From contig NW_001865059.1 in the NCBI RefSeq assembly GCF_000002865.3, positions 603,656 through 640,666 on the forward strand: a stretch of DNA of 37,011 nucleotides, given 5' to 3'. The notes under the pieces are model-generated. The model had not been told where the DNA came from. It worked only from the letters and a program-made list of their open reading frames with translations, and searched no databases. The translations under genes and the position numbers were made by a program. Within the stretch, counting starts at the first letter, position 1. Every line of letters starts with the position of its first letter. Below are positions 11,790 through 35,479 of this stretch, piece by piece. The DNA is from Monosiga brevicollis MX1. Lineage: Eukaryota > Opisthokonta > Choanoflagellata > Craspedida > Salpingoecidae.

Positions 11790-14024
11790 ATGATGTCGGC
11801 TACGTCAGAGGCGGATCTGCTCCGCAAGAGCAAGGTCGAACTTCAAGCGCTGGCTCTCCAAGTGGGCTTGAAAAAGGTGTGTCGGCTTTCTTTTGCCTCT
11901 CGTTCTCCTTCGTTATCCACCCTTGCGCCGGCCCAGCCTGCTCACCTTTCCAAAAATCGACTTTGGCGCGTGTGTAGAGCGGCGTGGGGTGGCCAACCTG
12001 CTGTCCGCCAAAGGGGAGCAAGGAAGATATCGTGCGGGCTCTGTTGCAGTTTCAAACTGAGCAGGGGGCTGATGAGCGCCTTCCCTCAGCTGAAACCTCG
12101 CCTGCCAGAACCATTGCCAAGGCACTTGAACCAGTCACAGCCACCGCTCGTCCTGACGATGCAACAGTGCCTACAACTCCGCCCCGCACACCTTCGCGTA
12201 CTATTCCGAGCGTCATTGTGACGCCCAAGGCTGCGCCACCGACGTCGTCAACTCAAATGCTCTTTGCCACCGCGCAGTCTGCAGCCACACAGCCCACGCT
12301 TTCGGCCGTGCCGGCCCATCCGCAGCTACCAGCCAAGGACCTACATGCCATCGCCACCATGGCTATTAGTGACGCACAAGCAAGTGGCACGGCCAATCTG
12401 GCCGACTTTCATCTGGACCGATTTCCTGCCCTTATGGACCGTGGCCTCGAGTGGCTCAGGACGCCCAGCGTCGCCCACAACCTCACTCAGCTGCATTTGC
12501 AAAACAACTATCTCACCGAGCTACCCTCTGAGATTGGCGCTCTCCAAGCGCTGCGCGTCCTGGACCTTAGCCACAACGAGCTCACGTCACTGCCCGATGC
12601 GCTCTTTTCGTGCCCCAAACTGCACTCCCTCACGCTAACCAGCAACAAGCTGCAGACCCTCTCGCCTATGATCAGTCAATGCAAGCACCTGTTTGTCTTG
12701 ATTCTCCACGACAACCTCTTGAGCGAATTGCCATACACGCTGGGTCACCTCAAGCACCTGCGCGAGCTCGGCATTGGATATCAGCCCCTGCTGCGCCGCC
12801 TGCCTCCGAACCTGGCCTTGTTGAAGGACCACCTAGATTCTTTATGGTTCCGAGGTCGAAATGACTTTAGCAATGTGCCTGCTGCCAAGCTCCTCGACAA
12901 GGATGCTGTCATGCAAATTTTGCAAGCTGAGCTGCGCACCCGTGTGACCCAAAGTCTGTCGTCTCCGCTTGCCCTTTTGCTCCAGCACCTTTGAACGTTT
13001 CGCAATCCCGCCTTTCAATGCTCATCTCCTCCCGATCTTCCCTGACTCAACAACTCACAGATACCAGCATGGCCGTTCTGAACAATCTCTTGGGTAACAT
13101 TCGCGTGTCTCCCATGAGCACCCCTAGCAAAGCCTACTTCAGCACGCCGCCCACATCGCGAGGTGCGTCTCGCGAAACCCAGGGCGCTTGAGTGCCATCC
13201 CCTTCAGATTGCTTTCCTTTGAACATACGCCTCTTTTTGCGGCGCTTTGAGACTTGCTTGCAGCTGTTTGACGAGTCAACCTGCTTGGTCGTATTTTCAC
13301 AGGGCGCAGCAGCTTGGTGGATCGAACCAATCTGGCTCAACCAAACTTTGGTGGCAAGTCATCAAACCTGGCCAAGACGCGCTTTGCCTATGACACCGAA
13401 ACAGACCAGTCACGGCAACGTGGGGCCTACACGCCACCCCGTGTCGCACGAGCACAAGTGGAGCCGGAGCGGACCTGGGCTTGCCTCTTTGCTGTGCTTG
13501 ACACCAATGTTGCCGTCGAACCGGCACAAATGCGCGACCTGCTAGATCTGCTGAATCATTATCGCGGGGTGACAGTTGTCATTCCCCGCACAACCATGTT
13601 TGAGCTAGAGCACATCAAAAAACGCACAGACCCGGCTGGCCATGCCGCTCGCAGCGCCATTCGGCTCTTTAACGCCCGCCTCAGCAAGCGTGACCCGCAA
13701 TTCCGTCTCCAACGTATCAAGGAAGAACTCAATGCCCAAAAGCTCAAGCTCTCGCAAGACCACCGCATTCTCGACTGTGCCATGTTCTTCCAGGAGCGCG
13801 TGGCGCAATACAAGGTCGGGATATCGTTTTGCCCGTGGAGGTTTTCTTTCTTCCTGAGATACACGGCATGGTGCTTAGCTCATCGGTTTGTCTTGAAATG
13901 ATGATAGCTTGGTGATCACGTCGTTCTATTGACTGGCGATGTCGGCCTACAAGCCGCCGCCGCCGCTGAACGAGTGGAATGGAACACCGTGCATCAGTTG
14001 CGCCGCAATCTCAGTCGGCGCTGA
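11790..14024 (+). CDS. SAP motif + leucine-rich repeats + SWT1-like PIN nuclease domain
   Basis: Suggested exons are 11790-11876, 12014-12941, 13061-13162, 13303-13814 and 13908-14024, which join in phase to 581 residues. Exon 1 plus the start of exon 2 make a SAP-type helix pair (SKVELQALALQVGLKK then GSKEDIVRALLQF); SAP motifs commonly bind nucleic acid. A Thr/Pro/Ala-rich linker leads to about five leucine-rich repeats (LTQLHLQNNYLTELPSEIGA and following). The 3' exons encode a PIN domain with FAVLDTNV, VIPRTTMFELEHIKKR, SQDHRILDCAMFF and VVLLTGDVGLQA, so acidic metal-binding residues sit in all four usual places; the pattern resembles SWT1/PIN_4 endoribonucleases. If the 12942-13060 intron is not used, the LRR frame stops at 12994 and a separate PIN gene would start at 13018 or 13069. 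An alternative acceptor at 11978 adds 12 residues inside the SAP motif. Confidence 0.65.
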
Positions 14025-14324
14025 TGGATGGCTTTCACTATTTGCAGAAAGTAAACCAAATTTCTACTTGTGGGTGGATGTTAGAAAGAAAAAGAAGACG
14101 AGCAAGGATCCAATGCATGAAATGTGTCGATTGTAGCTGCTTGTCTGAATCCAAATTTAAAAGCGCAACGATCCGCGCCCGGGTAGTTGTTCACCATCCA
14201 GCGTGAGTGACCAATTGGACGAGCAAAGGCGATGAAAATGGAAGCGACGAAAATGGATGAAAATGGATGCAACAGCTTTGCACAAACAAGCACATGATCA
14301 TATCCCCAACTGACTGATTTGCGC
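14025..14324. other. Gap between convergent genes
   Basis: About 300 bp of 3' flank shared by the PIN-domain gene and the USP5 gene. The only feature seen is a repeated GAAAATGGA-type motif near 14233-14268. Confidence 0.5.
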
Positions 14325-17300
14325 CTAGTCGCGCGACTCGTAGAGGTAGAGGTAGCCCAAGTCAAACGGGGGCTTGACGCTCTTGGCCACCTTGCGATCG
14401 TTGAAGATGAACCAGTCATCGCCCTTCCGAATGTGACAGATATAGTGACCACTTTGGGCCGCCGTTCCCATGTGACTGATGATCGCCTTGAGACGATAGC
14501 CTAAACCACATGAAGCAAATGCAAAAATCATTGTGCAAGCCGAGCATATGAAAGGAGTCAGCCACTTGCAAAAACAGTCCACGCTCGAGGCGAAGGAAGG
14601 TTAAAAAAGTGCAAAACAATTTGGATGAATAACAGCTTCTTGAGTCACGTACGGCCAGTGCCAGGTGCAAACTGCGGCTGGTCGGTGTTTGCGCGCTCAG
14701 AAGCAGGGGCCTCTGTGCTCGGCGCACTCTGCCGCAGATCTGATTCCTGCGGCAATATAATCCAACACCACGAAAAGGGATATCGTGAGCAGGGGCGTGA
14801 GTAGGTCAGGCAGTCCAGCAGTCCAGAGACTCAAGACAGATTCAGACAGACACAAGACATGGAGTGGTGTAGCAACAAAAGCATACCGGATCAGCCATCT
14901 CGTCAGGATGATTAAAGGCCCAATCGGCCGCGCGCTCCAAGTTGTTGTCCTGAGTGCAAGTGGCAAAGATATCAGTTGTGTGTATATTGCGGGCCGATGG
15001 CTTTTTGATGACGCGTTGGACCCTACCGTCTCACGAAGAGCGCGACGGGCCTGCTCCGTGGAAAAGCCCATGGCCTCGAGCATGCCCACAGCCTCGGCGG
15101 GGGGCTCAGCAGCGCCCCCGGAGGTATTTGCTCCAGAGGCTATCGCGGTTCCGGGAATGGTGAAAGGGGCCGCAAAGTCGGCATCATCCTGGTGAGCAAA
15201 AATCCACTCCATGGCTGCTTCCACGCCTGCCAAGGTGTGGAGGGGTTGTTGTGTGAGAGTCGATTATCGAGACGGATTATCGAGTCGGAAACAAAGTCTG
15301 GGCCGGCTTGCATGTTCCGTACTGTTGGGATTGTGATAAACCGCTCGCTTGCAGCCCTCCTCGGCAAATCCCATGGCAGCCAGTTGCGCCAGCATGTCGG
15401 GATCGAGTTCAATGGCAGGTGCTTCTTCAGCGGCTGGCTCTTCCTCTTCTGGAAGCAGCTCTTCATTGGGGTCGTGCTCCGAGGCTGCAAATGGCGTCAA
15501 ATCCATCTCCTCGGGCATGGTGATTGAGGCATCTACATCCCAACGATGCACGTGTAAGTGAAATCAATCAAACTTGTTCTTGGACACGCCCGGTTTGCGC
15601 TTCCAGCAGTTGAGGTCATACCGCGTTTTTGAGGGGTCCAATCATCTCCGACGAAAAATTTGTCGACTGCCATGAGAAGGTACTGTCACAGCGTTGATTT
15701 GAATGACATGAGGAGAAAAGAAACGAGAAACATGAAAAATGAAAGGAAACCCGAGCACAACAACAAAATCCAAGCATCCAAAGAATGTGACGAGTCGACG
15801 CACGCGCGGGAAGGACTTGAAACGTCGCTGCAAAGTGGCGGTTGTCTTGGCTTTGATGGCAGGGCTGTACCAATCCTCAATGACCTGTGAAATCAAAGCA
15901 GGCACCCGTCTCCATAAGACAAGCAAAATACGTAACGAGAGATGGCCTGAGGGTGTCTTCGTGCCTGATACGCGAGGGGCGCGTGCCATACCGCGGGAGC
16001 AAAGACGGAGTTGAGGATGCGATCAAAGCGCAAAACCAGCGGTACGTTTTCGCCCTCCACCTTGGTCTTGTTTGCCTTGGCCTCGGCCAGCTTTTGCTGG
16101 TAAGCTTGGTGTTCAGTCCAGTTTTCGGAATCCTCGGGGCGCACCGGTAAATGCAGTTGAGCGTCGTGCTCCGTGTGATAGCACCCCCCCCCCCCCCCCC
16201 AAAAAAAAAAAAAAAAAAAAAAAACAGGGAAAAAAAAAATGAGTCACGCAAAGAAGGCGCGCGGCGCACGTGTCGGGACGGGTTTGCTTGCCTTTTTGCT
16301 CGATGTGCAGGTCGTCTTGACCTCGGTGTCAAACTCAAAGAGCTGCCCAAAGTCGGCACGGCCATACTTTTTGCTATACGCCGACAGCTTTGTCATCATG
16401 TAGGACCAGAACTCGGAGGCATCTTGTTGGCTGCCGGTGGAGAATTCTGGGTGATCGCGGCAGAGTGCATGCTTGGTCATTTTAGGATCAATGCCATCCT
16501 GTTCCAGTTCAGCATCTGCTGCAGCGTCTGAAGCTTCAGGTTGGTTGGAATATTGGCCCGACTGAAGGCCGTGTCCAAGCTTATGGCTGTCCAAACCCGG
16601 CATGACCCAACAAAAACAGCATGAGAACATGTCAAGAAAAGAAAAAAAAAGAAGAAGAAAAAAAAAGGTCGAAGAAGAAAAACAAAGTAGAAGAAGGAGA
16701 AGGAGAAGAAACAAAAAGACAACTCGACTACGACAGGCAAGTGGTGCTCACAGTTGCAGTTCGAGGTCAACGGTGGGGTCGGCTTGACCATGGTAGGCCT
16801 GGATGGCTGAACCCTGAAACTCATCCACAAGCTCGCGAAGGCTGAACAAAACCTGCAACACCGAGTTCATGTAGCAGCTTTATTTGGGGAGGATGCAACG
16901 CGTGAGTTTGAGTCAAGCTGCAGGATGATATCATGGTGCATTTCAAAATAACGTGCGCGCGGCAAAACCATGGAAGGGCAAAACATGGAAGGGCGCCCGC
17001 GAATGGGGTTTGATGCTTGACATTGGGACAAACCTGTTGCCAAGGTTGCGCATGCCAGTAAAGCCGGGGCCAAAAGCTGGTTCAAGCTTGACGCCAGCTT
17101 CGGTGATACGGTCAAATTCAAACTTGAGTTGTTCGTTGGCCTCAATTTCCATCTCAGCCATGGACTTTGCAGTTTTGCGTTGCTCCTGGATGTTGATGCC
17201 AAAGTGCGCCAGATGCTGACTCAGCTTGGGGTCAAGGACCATGTCATCCTCTTCGTACGAGTAGACATCGGCGCCCTCGGGGGTGATGGTGCCCAGCTTC

Positions 17301-18532
17301 ACGGCCAGCGGATACTTGGTCTGCTCGTAGTGGTCAATGGCGTGGTTGTTGCCACCGGATCCTATCCAGCAGATCAAGCAGAAAAGGTTGGGTGACCGGA
17401 CCACGGGATTGCGGTCGTGTTTCGACCCTTAAACAGGTCTGACGGCCGAGCTGCGGCAGCGGGACGTTACCATCGTAGAATTTGCGGCCACATAGGATGG
17501 TGCCATCGGTCAAGTTGAGCCAGAGATTATCCGAAATGTCACACTTGGCGCACTTGTAGCCACTGGGAGGAACGCGAACCCCGTTGTCCAGCTGCAGGAG
17601 ATTTTCAGCGTGCCTAAGGGTTCATACCCAAGTGAATGAATGTGGCCAAGGGCCAAAGGCGCCTGTGATGGGCAAGAAAAGCGGGGCACTCACTTGGAAG
17701 GCAACCGCTGTTCTTCCCAGGCTTGGGCCTGGCGAAGCAAGGTCAGGCAAGGTTAAAGTGCAGCAAAGTGAGTCCAGCGAGTGACCACCCGGAGGCCGAG
17801 GTTGGGATGCTCATGCTGACCTGCTGCTGGAGCGAGGCAGAGCTGGCAGCAATGATAGCGGCCGCACTGTCTTGGACGTGGGCGGGCAAGCTGGGGTCTT
17901 CGAGCGTGATCAGCTTGAATTCTGGCAAGATGGCCACGGTGTATGTGTAGACAAGATCATAGGCATCCGAGTCTGCTGCAAAGCCATCCGGGGTGCCTAG
18001 GCCGGGGTGTGGAAAACGTTGAGCTCTCCGTCGAGTCTAGTCATACCAAGGGCGGGTGGCTGCATCATACGAACCAATGGCCATTTTGGTGGGCTTTTTT
18101 TGTGGCGGTTCCTGCTCGGGCGCAGGCTTCTGTGTAGGGTCAGGACATGAGCTGTGCAGCCACGGCGCAGCAGGCGGGGCAGGACAGGGGGAACGAGGTG
18201 GTGGGCGGCAGCGAGGGGTGAGCGGCCATACCTCAACGCGTTCGGCGCGCAGATGCAGAAAGGTGCGCTGGCCCGTGACCTCGTGGTACGTCGCCACGGC
18301 CGCGCGGCCAAAGCCAATAAAGGTCTTCATGCACACATACAGGCCATCGGGCGATTCCTGTGACGTGGCGGTGGCAGCAGGGCGGCGGCAGAAAAGGTGA
18401 GGGTGGCCGGGCAGGTAAGCGGGTCAAGAAGGGAGGAACAGCCTGTACCGGTGTGTCAAAGGTCAGGGTGCACTGATCCTTGAAGACGCTGTCACCCCCA
18501 GCCGGGGTGCGCACGTCGTCAAACTCGGCCAT
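14325..18532 (-). CDS. USP5: Ubiquitin C-terminal hydrolase 5 / isopeptidase T
   Basis: Deubiquitinase that in the known family disassembles free polyubiquitin chains. Minus-strand exons: 18449-18532, 18232-18357, 18075-18129, 17821-17996, 17694-17728, 17471-17613, 17034-17361, 16752-16877, 16292-16586, 15992-16168, 15804-15884, 15622-15682, 15323-15532, 15027-15226, 14887-14949, 14653-14746 and 14325-14500. All phases agree, giving 809 residues (human USP5 is about 835-858). In order: an N-terminal UBP-variant region (KKPTKMAIG), the UBP zinc finger with Cys180, Cys183, Cys200 and His213 spaced as in human USP5, the catalytic Cys box RNLGNSCYMNS (Cys317), two UBA domains (about 565-690), and the His box [20 protein letters not shown] (His770). 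The Ser codon before Cys317 is split by an intron. One intron (16169-16291) seems to use a GC donor. All catalytic and zinc residues are present, so the enzyme should be active. Confidence 0.95.
16184..16224 (+). repeat. Poly(C) 17 followed by poly(A) 24 in a USP5 intron
   Basis: On the coding (minus) strand this is a T run followed by a G run a short way before the acceptor of exon 15992-16168. The T run may serve as the polypyrimidine tract. Confidence 0.9.
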
Positions 18533-24180: not shown

Positions 24181-26721
24181 TTAGCACACGCTCTGATCGT
24201 ATTTGACGCCCATGGAGCCGGGCACGCTGCGTTGTTGGCGGTCTTCCACGGTAGCATAGGACCCGCGACGATATGCGTGGGGGTTTTCTGTGGCGGGTGA
24301 ATGCGAGCCAAGCTCGAGCAGGGCCACCTTGTCGGTAAATGTCAAATCCTCTGGGTCCTGCTGCTGCTTTGTGCGTAGGCGTGCGACGCGCTCTTGCAAC
24401 TCGGCACGCTTGGTGGCCAGGTTGTCATGGCTTTTTTGTTCCAATTGAAGAAGTTGCATTAGATGAGCATCATGCATCCACTCCTCGGTCAGTGCTTTCT
24501 CATCCAGTTCCACGCGACGGAAGCGCCCTTGGCGCAACATGTACGCCAAATCGGCGGTGCTGGGCAGAGAAGTGATGCCCCGCTTAAGGCTCATTTCCAA
24601 CCGCAAGCGCTCCAGGCGCCGGTTGGCGGCCACAGTCTCAGAATCCAGGTGTGCCTGCAAGCGTCGGGTTTCACTATCCATCTCGCCAGTCGGCACAGGA
24701 GGGGTCGGGGCTTGACTCGTGGGTCGTGATGCAGTCGCGGTTGCCAAAGGGCCCGCACTCGACACGGAATTGGGGCGCGACCTGCTCCCATCAGTCGAAA
24801 GCTGGTGGTGCAAGGCAGTCCCGCCCGTTGCGGGTGACAGCATTGACTGGCGTGCGTTGGCCGAGCCGGCGCGACTGCGCCACAAGTTGCCCACGTCCAC
24901 GGAGTGCCGTTTGACCAACTCGCGTTTGTTGCTCGGGGCAGACACGGTGGCAGCTCGGGGGCGCCGATGTGCAGCCGTAATACCAGTGCTACTGGCACCG
25001 TCCTCATCGCTTGCCTGACCACCATCACCGAGTTCAACAAAAGTTTGTAGGTTCTCGTCCCACCGACGGTGTTGCGAGCCGAGGCCCTGCTGCAAAAGCT
25101 TTTCCACCTGTCGGCGCAGAGCGTCAATCTCGGCCGCTTGGCGATGAAACGCCTCGTTGATCTTGGATTGCGGCATAAAGACCTGTGTGGCCGCTTCCAG
25201 CTCGGCCACGTATTCCTCGTCGATGCTTTTCAAACGCGCCTCAAGCGCTTGCTGAGTGATGAAATCTGGGGTCTCCTTGTTGCGCAGAGCATGCAATTCG
25301 TTTTCCAAGGCTGCTAGCTGGCTCTTGAGCTGCTCTTCCCGCTGGCGTTGCGCCTCGAGCTAACAGATTGAGTGATACACGGTGAGGGCAGTTGGACCAG
25401 TCTCTGCATTTTGTCTGCCAAGAATGGACGCTCAGGTCGTACCAGGGCTAAAAACTGTTGCTGCTGCGCTTCTAAGTGAGAGGTATCTGGCATGCGAAGG
25501 CGCTGCAACTCCTAAGGTCAACGCAGAGCATGGAGTCAAGCACACTTGGTGTGAGGAGAATCGGGGGTGTTTGATGATCGATGGTCGCCATGAGAGGGCG
25601 TACCTGAAGTAGATCGGCCGAGCTGGCTTGGTTTTGGCGGCGTTCGCGTTCAAGTTCCATGCGCAGCATCTCCAGACGAAGCTCGGCGGCGGTTTGATCC
25701 TGTCGTGCTTCGAGATTCCGCTGCAACAGGTTGCGCCGAAGTTCTTCTTTTTCGGCGGCATGCTGGGCAGCCGTTTGCCACGAGTCGGCAACGGATTCCA
25801 CCTCGTGGGAGTCGGGCAACGCTCCAAACGATGCCAGGCTGCGAATGGGTGCCCTAGCCTCGACTTCGCCAGCATGCTCTGCAAGGTCCGCATTAACACA
25901 AGATTGAGATGCGGGCTTTAGCAACATAACAGAAGCAGAGAGAACGTGTCGACGGCAAAGAAGGACAAGACCGAAAAGGTATAAAAAAAGAAGAAGAAGA
26001 AAAAAAAAAAAAGCCAAAACGTGGCTGGGCGACGCAGCGGTCATGGGGAGGGCATACCTGGGGATGACTGACCATCGTCACGGCGCTTGAGGAGGGCCAG
26101 TTCACGACGCAGGCGCGTGACTTCTCGCATGGCATCAACGAGTTCGCCTTCAAAATGGGCATCGTTAGGTTTGTGCTGTTGCGTGCGGAGAGACTCGACA
26201 CGCTGCTTGGCGGCGGTGAGTGCCTGCTGCAGGCGTGCGCGCTGTGTATTGCCAGGTGAGGGTGGTGCAGGGCCATTCGGCATTCGAATGGAGGACGAGG
26301 GCTGATGTCCACGCTGAGAAGCATAGCGAGCGTGTTGTGCCGGGTGATTTTGGCGTTGGCTGCCTGGGCCAGGGCGTCGCGTCGAGGCATCGTGCCGTCC
26401 ATAGGGCGGGGCCGCGTGTCGCTGGGTGGCGCGTCGGGTGCGGCGGCGGTCGGGGGGCAGGCGAGGATCTTCCAACTGGGTGGACCAGGTGTTATGGTCA
26501 ATGTAGTAAAGGCCAACCTCTGGATCGACGGCCATTTCCCATCCGTATGGAAGTTCGGGGCCTTCACACTCTTCAAAAGTGTGCGGCTTGATCTTGGCTT
26601 CGCGCGGATCCACCCAGGAGGAGGTATGGGCGCGGTGATCCAGGAAGTAAGTCCGCCCTGAATGCGCATCCACGCGTGCCTCGATGTGTGACGGCAGGTC
26701 ACGCGACACTGGTCGGTACAT
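24181..26721 (-). CDS. WWC1: KIBRA/WWC-like double-WW coiled-coil protein
   Basis: KIBRA/WWC proteins are scaffolds upstream of the Hippo kinases. Minus-strand exons 26058-26721, 25604-25878, 25443-25511 and 24181-25359 join in phase to 728 residues. Two WW domains sit at residues 8-40 and 57-86. The linker KPHTFEECEGPELPYGWE and the second domain (YYIDHNTWSTQLEDPRL) follow the WWC pattern, in which the second Trp of WW2 is replaced. In WW1 the first Trp is also replaced (Ile13), leaving only Trp36. Long coiled coils follow (LQQALTAAKQRVESLRTQ; AAEKEELRRNLLQRNLEARQ; LEAQRQREEQLKSQLAALEN), then a Ser/Pro/Arg-rich segment and a final helical stretch ending KYDQSVC. Animal KIBRA is about 1100 residues with a C2 domain; none is seen here. 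An upstream in-frame ATG at 26787 would add 22 low-complexity residues. The gene runs convergent with TBCE, 104 bp apart. Confidence 0.75.
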
Positions 26722-27547
26722 GGTGGCGGTGGCGATGGTGGCGGTGGCGATGGTGGAGGTGACGATCGGCTCAGATCGCAGCGGCAACGCAACGCGACTC
26801 GCTTATCACTTCTCGGGTGCAATCTGGCCAACCCAATCAAACAAAGCACAAAGCTGGCTAGATCAAGCTGCAGCTGGGCCTACACCAAAGCAAGCCAATC
26901 AGCAGGAGGGCAAAACCGGACCACGCACTGCTGCCGCGGCGAGAAGACGCTGCCATTGCCTGTGCCAGTCGATCGGTGAAGCCCCTTTGGCAAATTCTCG
27001 AGGTCAGTCAGAGAAAAATTTCAGATTGAGTGTGGCTGAGAGACCTGCAGTGAAGCGTGATGCAGAGGCAGAGAAGCGCTTTGAAAACAGTTACAGCCTA
27101 AGGATGAATTCCGTGCGACATCAGAGAACAGCGTACAGGGCGATCAGACCTCAGAGAGAGCGTTTCCGGAAGAGATGTACCTTAGAGATCAAGACTGTTG
27201 TGGCTGCACTATGGCGAAGTCAAAGTGTGATTTACAACACATTTCAACTGTATGGTTGAACATGTGAAACACAAGTTTGAGAGTTTTTAGAGAGAGAGAG
27301 AGAAGGAGAGAAACAAAAATTTAATTGTTTCACTTCATCATCGACTGCGCCTTGACCACTTGCTTGACTTTTGGGCATGCACTTGGGATTTGGTCTGATT
27401 GGAAGTGGGTAGGGGGAGAGATGGATGCCGCAGGGTGCTGGATTGAACGTTTCTGGCAGAGAGCAACAGACAACTTTTCACGCGAAAAAAAAAAGAAAAA
27501 AAGGACAGACAACAGAAGGGCACATGGGAGAGGGCTACAGCGAAGAG
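26722..27547. other. Intergenic region upstream of the WWC-like gene
   Basis: It holds a GGTGGCGATGGT repeat at about 26722-26760, just before the WWC-like start, then unremarkable sequence and a short (GA)n at 27288-27310. No gene is seen. Confidence 0.5.
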
Positions 27548-28974
27548 TTACTCCTTGTAGTTGATGGGCTTGTGGCGGCGGGTGCGCGTGGTGGGCAGGT
27601 CACGGACGGGGCTTTTGCGGCCTGGGTTTTGGAAGCGAAGCTCCTTGGGAATTTGGGATTGATCCGGGCTCAGGAGCTCCTCTTCGTCCGACTGGTCATC
27701 TTCATTGTCATCGTCCGACATCAGTCCATTGGCAACATTGGCAGCCGGTGGGCGGCGCGACTTGGTTGTCTTGGGTGCAGGGGTGGCTTCATCGCCAGCC
27801 TCCTCACCCTCATCCTCACTGAAGATACCACCGGTCGCGCTCGCTTCCATGGCTTCCCGCTCCGACTTGTGTTGAGCCAGAAGCTCACGAGCTTTGTCAA
27901 CGGCCGACTCGGTGACTTCCGCGGCCTTCTTCACCGCCACGGTTGGTGCTGTGGGGGAAGCTTGCGTCGTAAAGTAGCTAACACGTCGGACAACATGGGC
28001 ATTCAGACCAGGATTAACCAAGCAAAGTACCAGGGGCTTGGGCACCGTGGCGCACTGGCTGGAGATTGGAATCGATAGTGAAAACGAGAGAAAGTGGGAG
28101 CCGCGCATACCGGACGGCGAGGGAGAGGATGACAGACGCAATAAAGTAACCACCGCAGATGGCATTGGCGCTGGGAGTGTCTACAATAAAACGGGGGTAT
28201 GACACGCTCAAGGGTGAGCATGTAGTGTCACTTGATTCAGTGCCGCAGCCGAGGAAGGTTAGGAGAGGCGAGCGGCACTCACCCTTGGGCACGCTAGCAA
28301 AGTTTTTGAGCCAGTAGGAGAGGAGCGTGGCGGTAATGGCCGTGTTGAGCACATCCTCACCCACGTTCCAGGACGCACGGGCAGCCACAAAAATCTCCCC
28401 CAGAAAGAGGGCCGTGTAAATGGGGGCGCTGCGGTTGATGAGCCAAGCGGCAGTCACGTCGGCGAGCTCGTCGGAGCGTGCAGTGGCCTGGATGGCCAGA
28501 TTTTGCGAGAAAACCAAAATCAGGGTGGCGACGGCGGCGGGGCCCGACCAGACGCCAAAGAAGCTATCCCGAAGAGCCAGTGCGTAGCCTCGGCGACCCA
28601 TCATGTCGGCCACAAAGGCAACAAGAAAGTAGAGCGCCTGGCTCACGGCCGTCCAGCGCACGATCAGAGCGGCCAAGAAGGGCTGGGCCCCCAACACACC
28701 GTCCTCATGGACACCTGATGCAGTCACACGCGTCAAAGCGTAGCCTAAACACGCGAGCGGCAACGCAAAGTTTGACCCGGCCACACCGAGTGAGGAGGTT
28801 GTCATTGGAAAACCAACAACAACAACAACAGAACAAAAAAAAGAAAAAAAGAACCGACAGTGTGTCGAGATGGGCTAGCTTGGGGAAAGGGCATGGCGCG
28901 AACCTACCAGCCATGAGGGCAGTGACGCCGAGCGCCACCGCATGGACGCTCATACTGACTTCGACAGACACCAT
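27548..28974 (-). CDS. Multi-pass membrane protein, possibly FAR-17a/AIG1-like
   Basis: Minus-strand exons 28908-28974, 28283-28744, 28111-28180 and 27548-28058 join in phase to 369 residues. The first 225 residues hold about five or six hydrophobic helices. The pattern RWTAVSQALYFLVAFVAD, then LRDSFFGVWSGP, then a Trp-Leu segment followed by a helix with Glu (ALFLGEIFVAA) recalls the FAR-17a/AIG1/ADTRP family of membrane lipid hydrolases, including a Thr at position 54 where that family has its catalytic Thr. The His of the family's WLNH motif is not seen (the segment reads WLINRSAPIY). The last 140 residues form a cytosolic-looking tail that is Ala/Lys/Glu-rich, then very acidic (EDEGEEAGDE, DDDNEDDQSDEEE), and basic at the end (TTRTRRHKPINYKE). 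Membrane topology is firm; the family call is tentative. Confidence 0.6.
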
Positions 28975-30515: not shown

Positions 30516-33500
30516 ATGACCGAGCGTGAGGTGGACGCGCTCATTGGCGCTGCCGTGCAGGCCGCCCTGGCCAATGATGGCACGGTCTTGCAAGCAACGA
30601 GCCAGCTTGTGGGCCTCTTCAAGGATCTATGTACCGGGCACACCGAAGCCATGCAGACGGATGCTCGTAAGGCCCTCACGACGGTCGTGGGCAACGCTCG
30701 TCGCGTTGCGGCTGCCGAGGCTGATCCCCTGGCTCGCTGCCTGGCCCTCGGTGAATTTGGTCTGAGTTGCACCGCGTTGGCCGATGCTGGTAAGGCTCTG
30801 GTGGAGGCTGCTGCCTCAACAGCGGCACCGGCTGCAACACCGGCTGCAGAACCCGGTGTACAAGAGCAGGCGCTGGAGGATATCGATGACGTACAAGGCG
30901 ATGAACCCGAGCTCTACAACAACTTTTCTGGCAATGCCATGGCAATGGGCATTGAGGAGGAAGAGGACGACGACGATGATTTCGCGACTGCCGATGATGA
31001 AACGGCCACCGCCCGCCTCGCTGTTGCATCGGCCTTACCCCCGCTGGAGGATGAGATCCAAGACGTTGTCGACATTATCCTGCACGACGCCGAGGAGCTC
31101 TTTGGTGCCATTGAACGCTGGGACGTGGCTGATGTCGTGTGCATCACCACCGGCGTTATCCGTGCCCTGCCCACGCTGCTGCAAGAAGCTGACAAAATCG
31201 ACAGCGATGATGTTGCTCAGGCTCGCCAAGTATGTCTTGCCTACCTTTTCTCTCCTGGCTGGGCCACAGATCAAGTTTTGATAGGTACGCTCTTGCCTGT
31301 CGCTTTGATCGGTACACTCACCCCGTTCCAATCCTACTGCTCAGAATGTCGTGGAGAGCTGCGGTGTCATGACAGGTCTGGCCCGTACCGTGGCTCGCAA
31401 CCCGGACGGAGCCTACCTCACCCCCCAACTTTCAGATGCGCTCTCCGATCTGACCACGGACATCAACGGCTTTGTCGTGGCTTTGAAACGCCACCGCTAC
31501 CTCGGCACGCAAGACGAAATCTCCTCCGAGGTTCTCATCCAGCGTTGTGAGGGTATTCTTCTCACAAAGCAACAGCCCTCCCCGTACAGGTGCGCGTTGT
31601 CCTCATTGCTTGCAGTGTGACATATCGGCAGCAGCTGACATTGCCTGTGACCTCTTGCTTTGGATGGCGACTTGCCCCTGTCATTGCCTCACCAATTTGA
31701 ATGACCAGTGACGCGCCCAACCCAGAGAAGCTGCAGCGGGTGACCAATCTCTCGCAAAAGGCTGCCATGCATGCCTTGTCCCAGCTCTCCGGCTGTCTGC
31801 TGAGCGATGACCCCACTGTCAAAGAAGTTGGTTTCTTGCGTCGGTCCTGCCCTCCGCTCTCTGTGCTCTCCCTTTCGTTCAGTTCCATACCGCCTCAAGC
31901 TTCCTCTGGCTTGAACTGCCTCTGATCACCCTGTTCGCCCATGTAGTTGGCCGCACTCTTGGACCAGATCGTGACGCATATTTGCCACCTGCTTGATGCC
32001 AGTGATCGACTCTCGCACGGCGTTAATTTACCACCCCGGGCCCACGCCTTTGAGACCTGCCACTTGATTGTGCGCGCTCTCCTGCCCGTGTGCAAACCCG
32101 TGCCTCCGGGAGGCAATGGGCCCGAAGTCGGCGCAGCTTTGACCACGCTTCGCAGCAACATGCCCGTCTTGCTCGAGGCCATCAAGCGCCTTGGTGACGA
32201 GTGTGACCGCCTCCTTGAGCAAGCCCAGGCCAAGCCGCCCCCCTTGCCCCAGCGCTTCGAGCCAACCTCCGCTGGCATAACCACCATCGGCGTCACCTGC
32301 CGCCTCTGCAGCGACAACTTTATCAACACCAAGGGCGAGGTGAGTCTGCGCTTTTTGCTCCAAACTGTTCACGGTCCCACACTCTGCGTCATCTCCATGG
32401 CATCCTTTCTGATCCCTCGCGGTGGTCGACATGGTGTAGCCCCTGCGCCTGGGCGATGCAACGCAGGTCACCCTGTTTGAGGATGCAACAATTCAGCAGC
32501 TCATGGTCTCGCTCACGCAAAACATCCGAATCCCCGTAACTGACCTTGCCGTGCTCAGCGCCGAGCAAGTGCTGCCAGGCGACCTGGCCGTAGCAGGTAG
32601 GGCGTGGATACAGACTGCATCAGGTCATGAGATGCTGCAAGTTCAGCAAAAATCTCATCTTGCGTCTTGTCTTGGTCGTACCCAGACGCACTCAAGCAAT
32701 CGGAGCTCTACGTGTATAACAAGAACGACAAGCATGACCTACAGAACGAGGTGGCTCTCATCAAGCAGCGCGTACGTCTATGCGCATAACTCGCAGCGCG
32801 CCTTTTTCGCGCAGCACATCCAAACCGCCTCGCGCTTGGGCATGCTCTAATCTTCCTTCACTTCTCGCTGCGGTCTACATCAATACACTTCAGCAATTGG
32901 CCAAGGCACTGCGTACAAACAAGATGAGCTCCAGCACCAACATCAAACGTTCTGAAACGAAACGTGCTTTTTCGTACGTGGCTTCAACCCGAGTGCAACA
33001 AAAGTTGGCTCCCTCTCCTTTCGTGCTGTCTTACGTGATGTATTTTACTTGGGTCTCGCACAGGGAACTCAAGGGGCGATCAGATGAGGAAACGGCGCGT
33101 CTGCAACTCATGTCACTGGTCAAGGATGGCCGTTTGACGGTGGATCAAGCCGTCAGCGCCAGCACCATCGCCAACTCGGCTGCCATGGTACGAGTGAGCG
33201 TCGCCCGTGGTTTTGTTCTCGTGAACCTGAGCACGCGCACGCTCATTTTGAGCATCTCCTATTTCTCTCCAGCAATTGAGCCTCAAGGCTTCGCATGCGC
33301 TCGACATGCCTGCCAACAAGCGGCCAGCGCCTGGGATCCCGCCAGCGCCTGGTATCAACACGGCCTCGGACGAGGACAGCATGTCCATGGCCGCCTTTGC
33401 CGCCACGTCCACACGCCGTAAATTCAGCCGCAGCCCAAGCCCCAGCGGCGGGGCCCCTAAGCTCTTTATGGAAGGCTTCTTGGGCAAAGTACGCCTGGCT

Positions 33501-34779
33501 GCCCTTTTTCTCCATGTGGTGTGATGCTTCCATTTGGTCACCTCGGTCCTACTCTGTCCACAGGAGGGCGGCACCTACCGCACGTGGAAAACGCGGTGGT
33601 TTGTACTGACGGACGTAGAGCTGACCTACTTTCGCTCGCCAAGCGTCAAGGTTTGTGAGACCCCCCGCCACCGGTCATGTTGAGTGTACGCCAACGGTTG
33701 CAGGGCCCTCTTCTACAAGACGCAGCGCTCGCAACTGTTTTGCACACGCCATTCTTAACCGATCTTGGCTTCCGTCCATGGCTAGGATCCCTTGGGCGTT
33801 ATTCCTTTGGATGTTTCGTTGTGCTGCAGCCCCGAACCGGATCGCAGTGGACACGGCAATTGCTTTGCTCTCAAGCCCAAGCAGCAAACGGAGCGCGTTT
33901 TCTACCTCAGCGCTGCAACGTGTGTTCTCCCGTGCCATCGTGCCCGCCCCTTCTTTTTCATACCAGCTCACCGCGCGCGGATATCACGTGTAGAGAGGCT
34001 CAGCGTCGAGCCTGGATGCGCTGCATTGACCAGCTCATCCCTGGGCGTCAGCCATACGTGTCCCAAGTCAAGGCGGTTAAGACTTGCATCCAACATCTGC
34101 AGGAATCGGGGATCGCCAAGGAGGACGTGTTTCGGTAAGCTTGCCCAAATCACGAACCTACTGATGGTGTCTGCTCTCTACCACACGGTACGGTTCTCAT
34201 GAGCCGTCGTTTGGCAGCGTGCCTGGCAATGCGGGTCAAGTTCAAAAGCTGGTGGAAGCCATGCAGACCAAGCTAGAGCTGCCGGCTGACCTTCTGGGCA
34301 ACCCACACACGTTGGTGAGCTTTATCAAGGCCGTCTTCAAGAATCGCTTGTTGGGTCCGTTTTTGTCCGATGAAGAGCAGCAACTGCTCAGCAAAGCTCT
34401 GCAAGAAAGCGCCTCGGACGAAGCAACGCAAGTGTCCAGCGTGCGCCACGCTCTTGAGCTCATGCATCCTCTCGAGGCGGACCTGGTGCTGGCCTTGGGT
34501 GAACTTTTGGTCAAGGTGGACGCCCATCAAGCCGTGACCAAGTGCTCTTCGGAAGACCTGAGTCGCTCCTTCGGTGAGTCCCAATGAAAGCGCACCCTTG
34601 GCCCTGTCCTTCTCCCTCCTTGCAGCGCACGCCCTGCTCATGCGTGACACTGCACTCTTGAATACTACTTTGCAGGCCCGCTCCTGTTTCCCTCGGCCGA
34701 GGAAAGCCAGGCCTGCCGTGCCATCTTTCTTTTGCAGGCGCATCTCGAGGACATGCGCAGTCAAGACTCTGATGCATAG
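30516..34779 (+). CDS. Helical-bundle, PH and RhoGAP domain protein
   Basis: Exons: 30516-31229, 31345-31589, 31709-31826, 31947-32339, 32440-32596, 32686-32771, 32894-32973, 33064-33187, 33273-33488, 33564-33650, 33786-33919, 33994-34134, 34218-34573 and 34676-34779; in phase, 984 residues. Residues 1-470 are mostly alpha-helical with an acidic loop (about 145-165) and look like stacked helical bundles of talin/vinculin style, though no family is proven. Residues about 491-570 (PLRLGDATQVTLFEDATIQQ) may be a ubiquitin-like or Ras-binding fold. A PH domain spans about 703-800 (FMEGFLGK, WKTRWFVLTDVELTYF, AQRRAWMRCI). A RhoGAP domain follows: EDVFRVPGNAGQVQKL with the arginine finger Arg832, then FIKAVFKNRLLGPFL and LALGELLVKVDAHQAVTK. 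RhoGAPs switch off Rho-family GTPases, and the PH domain suggests membrane recruitment. The split Arg codon lies across an intron. Confidence 0.85.

Positions 34780-35479
<700 letters not shown>

Follow-up and report, generated by a model that had tools for sequence, protein, structure and literature searches.

A candidate gene of Monosiga brevicollis likely joining a SHOC2-type leucine-rich repeat to a PIN nuclease domain

Analysis of a 37,011-nt stretch of contig NW_001865059.1 of Monosiga brevicollis MX1 (hereafter the window; the genome assembly comprises 39.5 Mb in 57 contigs) revealed a leucine-rich repeat (LRR) reading frame followed closely by a PIN nuclease frame. Judged from the sequence, the better reading, with a probability of about 0.62, is a single spliced gene at 11790-14024 with five exons encoding approximately 581 residues (Table 1), and the LRR and PIN domains are likely carried by one mRNA. 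This reading is preferred on the basis of splice-site quality, spacing and the lack of room for gene ends between the two parts. The product would be an intracellular protein consisting of a low-complexity N-terminal segment, a SHOC2-type LRR, a linker containing Ser/Thr-Pro and, at the C terminus, a PIN_4 domain.

Table 1. Features of the candidate LRR-PIN gene under the one-gene reading (window coordinates)
Feature	Coordinates	Strand	Content
Exon 1	11790..11876	+	start codon 11790; N-terminal segment
Exon 2	12014..12941	+	low-complexity segment, SHOC2-type LRR, then predicted closing helix
Disputed intron	12942..13060	+	119 nt; contains LRR-frame stop 12994
Exon 3	13061..13162	+	102 nt, Ser/Thr-Pro-containing linker
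Exon 4	13303..13814	+	linker, then the larger part of the PIN domain (DTN, FELE, QDHRIL)
Exon 5	13908..14024	+	final part of the PIN domain (TGDVGLQ); stop codon

Gene structure

Splice sites were compared with 37 introns (median 120 nt) predicted by a small gene finder, which was trained on the window, with the present locus masked, together with three further PIN_4 loci of the genome (L002-L004). A first version of this gene finder was discarded because it over-predicted introns (456). The donor of exon 1, AAG|GTGTGT, scores 2.83, at the 78th percentile of the 37 predicted introns. Exon 2 can start at 11978, 12014 or 12050, all in phase, and can end at 12941 or 12953 in the same phase. The acceptor of exon 5 (intron 4) scores below all 37 predicted introns, and exon 5 is required for the PIN_4 match to reach position 127 of the 132-position profile. 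Exon 3 has good flanking sites and a neutral coding score (0.26); as its length of 102 nt leaves equal phases at both ends, the reading frame is preserved when it is skipped, and such skipping may occur in some form of the transcript.

The gene finder placed LRR and PIN in one gene in all seven settings (7/7), with exon 2 starting at 12050 in 6/7 and at 12014 in 1/7. Its junction, 12953 -> 13303, skips exon 3 and differs from that proposed in the first-pass annotation of this DNA. One gene leads two genes by a margin of 11.8 when a gene is assumed to cost 14, and the margin shrinks to 0 when it costs 2, indicating that it mostly reflects the assumed cost. On the minus strand, the gene finder also merged 24181-28805, the first part of which is membrane-like and another part of which carries WW, into a gene that is probably a false fusion. 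Its joining of LRR and PIN is weak support for one gene.

Junction between the LRR and PIN frames

The LRR frame stops at 12994 and the first ATG of the PIN frame is found at 13018, leaving a gap of 23 bp. The first-pass annotation had bridged this gap with an intron at 12942-13060, the coordinates and phase of which hold: its removal eliminates the stop and joins both frames in phase, C|GTGTGA is present at 12941|12942, and both CTGAC and CTCACAG lie 5' of 13061. The donor chosen there is weak. It (CCCGTGTGA) scores -0.83, at the 5.4th percentile of the 37 model-predicted introns, and the same-phase donor AAA|GTCTGT at 12954, which adds four residues, scores better (0.72); the acceptor before 13061 scores 1.78. 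Regarding the phase, dinucleotide shuffling of the interval left some in-phase GT-AG join possible in 1607 of 2000 cases, so that agreement in phase says little by itself. Of the real joins, 12954 -> 13061 is the best. Its score of 2.49 was equalled or exceeded in 34/2000 shuffles; within the same gene, intron 3 scores higher (5.56) and intron 4 lower (-1.28). The join 12942 -> 13061 scores 0.95, which was equalled or exceeded in 194/2000. The disputed intron is 119 nt long, against the median of 120 nt for the 37 predicted introns.

A somewhat unlikely alternative is a pair of tandem genes, an LRR gene ending at 12994 and a PIN gene starting at 13018, 13069 or 13114, arranged as overlapping or very tight units. 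Only 23 bp would then separate stop and ATG, although each frame is complete enough to stand alone. None of the 11 poly(A)-like words tried occurs in 12901-13806, and a poly(A)-like AGTAAA is found at 14050, 3' of the last stop. The disputed interval is not A+T-rich (0.47, with 45-54% in the other introns of the gene) and lacks a stretch like that upstream of 11790; the flanks of the gene have A+T contents of 0.74 (upstream) and 0.61 (downstream). The tail of the LRR frame (12944-12991) is mildly coding-like, with a score of +1.11 that does not mark it clearly as non-coding, and a small start-context model rates the ATG at 13114 (0.9) better than that at 11790 (-1.95). Two genes would also fit the frequency with which an in-phase join is possible in any interval this long, as well as the two-gene parse, which equals the joined parse at a gene cost of 2 or less; a splice pair as good as the real one, however, arose in only 34/2000 shuffles, and a single spliced gene remains the preferred reading.

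Within the one-gene reading, the splice could itself serve as a switch by alternative processing, in which retention of the intron would give an LRR-only protein ending at 12994 and its removal would add the nuclease, exon 3 being optional. The LRR frame ends 17 codons beyond the weak donor at 12942, two same-phase donors are available, the phases of exon 3 are equal and the gene finder favours the exon-3-skipping form. Weak or alternative sites alone are no proof of regulated use, and this sub-case is considered decidedly unlikely.

The PIN domain

The joined product matches PIN_4 (PF13638) with an E-value of 3.1e-19 and 70 bits, against a curated cut-off of 21.9, over profile positions 2-127 of 132, the match ending at residue 567 of 581. 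A six-frame search found PIN_4 at the same place as exon 4 (3.0e-17). All the motifs pointed out earlier occur: DTN, FELEHIKK and DHRILDCA, together with TGDVGLQ, which is encoded by a different exon (13908-14024). At least four PIN_4 loci are found in the genome, namely the LRR-PIN locus, an SMG5-like locus (L002) and a DIS3-like locus (L003), both labelled by eye, and an SMG6 locus (L004), which matched EST1A structures at 1.9e-4. When L004 was aligned after excision of a presumed intron by eye, the acidic residues of DTN, FELE, QDHRIL and TGDVG (D, E, D and D) fell in the same columns as those of this SMG6; the third of these residues is missing from the SMG5-like protein as aligned. That the PIN part is decaying or was misassembled is highly improbable: several weak splice sites might be cited in favour of such a remnant, of which no direct sign was seen, whereas the PIN_4 match is nearly end to end and the four acidic positions are intact.

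A profile built from three sequences (the candidate, L004 and L002) found human EST1A at 1.7e-10, a value to be read with L004 itself in the profile, and phmmer recovered no PIN from the solved structures when the PIN part was the only query. That the protein is an active nuclease is thus a prediction. The fold prediction for exon 4, made from a single sequence with no alignment, had a mean pLDDT of 39.9, which is too low for use.

The LRR domain and the N terminus

In the joined 581-residue product, Pfam LRR_8 is matched at 3.2e-16, and SHOC2 is the best solved relative of the LRR (5.8e-60); the tandem LRR_8 repeats together with this relative place the domain among SHOC2-type LRRs. NCBIfam contributed general LRR proteins well short of their cut-offs and nothing of PIN type. 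A model of the LRR piece from a single sequence with no alignment reached a mean pLDDT of 53.4 (low confidence), and Foldseek gave no PDB match for it at E <= 0.001. In this 203-residue model, a low-confidence helix at residues 189-201 follows the repeats, ending just before the disputed junction, and is predicted to be placed as a closing helix of the LRR would be. A Ccr4-type LRR was considered because the Ccr4 structure 4b8c ranked 4 and 6 in Foldseek. It was rejected, as SHOC2 comes first by sequence and no Ccr4 chain occurs in the best 60 of 203 matches.

The first-pass annotation had suggested a SAP-LRR-PIN fusion. Its LRR and PIN domains are borne out and their joining is likely; the SAP motif finds no support from the profiles used. 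A search for SAP returned no Pfam family up to E 10 with either acceptor choice, and a five-sequence SAP HMM gave the N terminus 1.3 bits, a score reached by 284/2000 shuffles. A loose SAP pattern, written after the sequence had been seen, matched the N terminus and 0/200,000 shuffles, but it also matched 0/5 true SAPs and was for this reason not used. The compact SAP reading requires the acceptor at 12014, which scores below all 37 predicted introns. Since the acceptor of intron 4, needed by the PIN domain, is equally low, a low score alone excludes no site.

Comparison with known systems

PIN nucleases like SMG6 and Swt1 owe their targeting to partner domains, and the PIN domain of Swt1 belongs to the PIN_4 family. 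In Ccr4/CNOT6, an LRR is located N-terminal to an mRNA nuclease (a deadenylase) and docks a partner, and the nuclease fold of Ccr4 is unrelated to PIN. The candidate resembles Ccr4 in having an LRR N-terminal to a nuclease. It differs in that its LRR is nearest to SHOC2 and in that the two nuclease folds are unrelated. With SMG6/EST1A the candidate shares a PIN domain, the acidic positions of which align with those of the SMG6 of its own genome. Unlike SMG5 and SMG6, it shows no EST1/14-3-3-like domain among the 10 Pfam families matched at E <= 1, and the genome carries a separate SMG6 (L004).

The likeness to Swt1 lies in the PIN nuclease domain and is a relationship at the PIN_4 family level only. 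A published survey describes Swt1 with a HEPN dyad after the PIN domain and a WW domain in some members (PMC3710099); in contrast, the candidate PIN domain is C-terminal, and neither HEPN nor WW is among the 10 Pfam families (E <= 1). A typical Swt1 identity is rejected on the domain order and the lack of a HEPN match among these families. The plant protein AtPS1 is described as consisting of an FHA domain, a compositionally biased linker and, at its C terminus, a PINc domain that is grouped with C1orf26 (SWT1), SMG6 and PhoH (PMC2581889). Both proteins have a non-catalytic docking domain at the N terminus and a PIN domain at the C terminus, with a biased linker between; the docking domain is FHA in AtPS1 and LRR here, no FHA being among the 10 Pfam families (E <= 1).

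Searches for relatives in viral contigs gave three pattern matches, none of which was confirmed, and those in contigs of prokaryote genomes gave 597, again with none confirmed. Plasmids yielded one weak match, a PhoH family protein (E 0.1, with 40% of the query covered). The combination of SAP, LRR and PIN was not found in the open-licence papers searched. No LRR-PIN protein appears in the titles and abstract openings of the open-licence matches listed, or in the available parts of PMC3710099, PMC5031192, PMC2581889 and PMC3482391. LRR with PIN is accordingly a domain pairing not met among the matches listed in these limited open-licence searches.

Possible function

By analogy with these systems, the LRR would dock a partner protein and thereby deliver a metal-dependent endonuclease, specific for single-stranded RNA, to its substrate; the FHA domain in AtPS1 and the LRR in Ccr4 may guide their enzymes in a comparable way. 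The LRR-PIN locus is one PIN_4 locus besides the SMG5-like, SMG6-like and DIS3-like loci, in a count that is a lower bound. A more far-reaching proposal, that an LRR-aimed PIN endoribonuclease replaces Swt1 in this lineage and is coupled to an intron-retention switch between LRR-only and LRR-nuclease forms, is unlikely as a whole. If an LRR does aim a PIN domain here, it would give a single-celled eukaryote a further means of directing RNA cleavage.

Neighbouring features of the window

An intron-rich gene for a USP5-type ubiquitin hydrolase lies at 14325-18330 on the minus strand and converges on the PIN gene; its final exon, near 14325, was read by eye. The predicted protein aligns with human 3ihp (6.4e-104) over three stretches, between which a part is missing. 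On the same strand, a WW-domain exon is found at 26058-26769 (1.3e-13, two stretches), and coiled-coil-like exons downstream of it reach 24181; this order of WW and coiled coil at 24181-26769 is presumably a KIBRA-like layout. A predicted 11-exon gene at 30516-34779 on the plus strand encodes a C-terminal RhoGAP domain (1.5e-13), and its long N-terminal part has no Pfam match at 0.01. No tRNA and no Rfam family were found in the window. A long array of 9-base units occupies 1049-1875, in which a minus-strand open reading frame encodes a Val-Glu-Asp-rich repeat, and a perfect GT array of 130 copies is located at 35043-35302.
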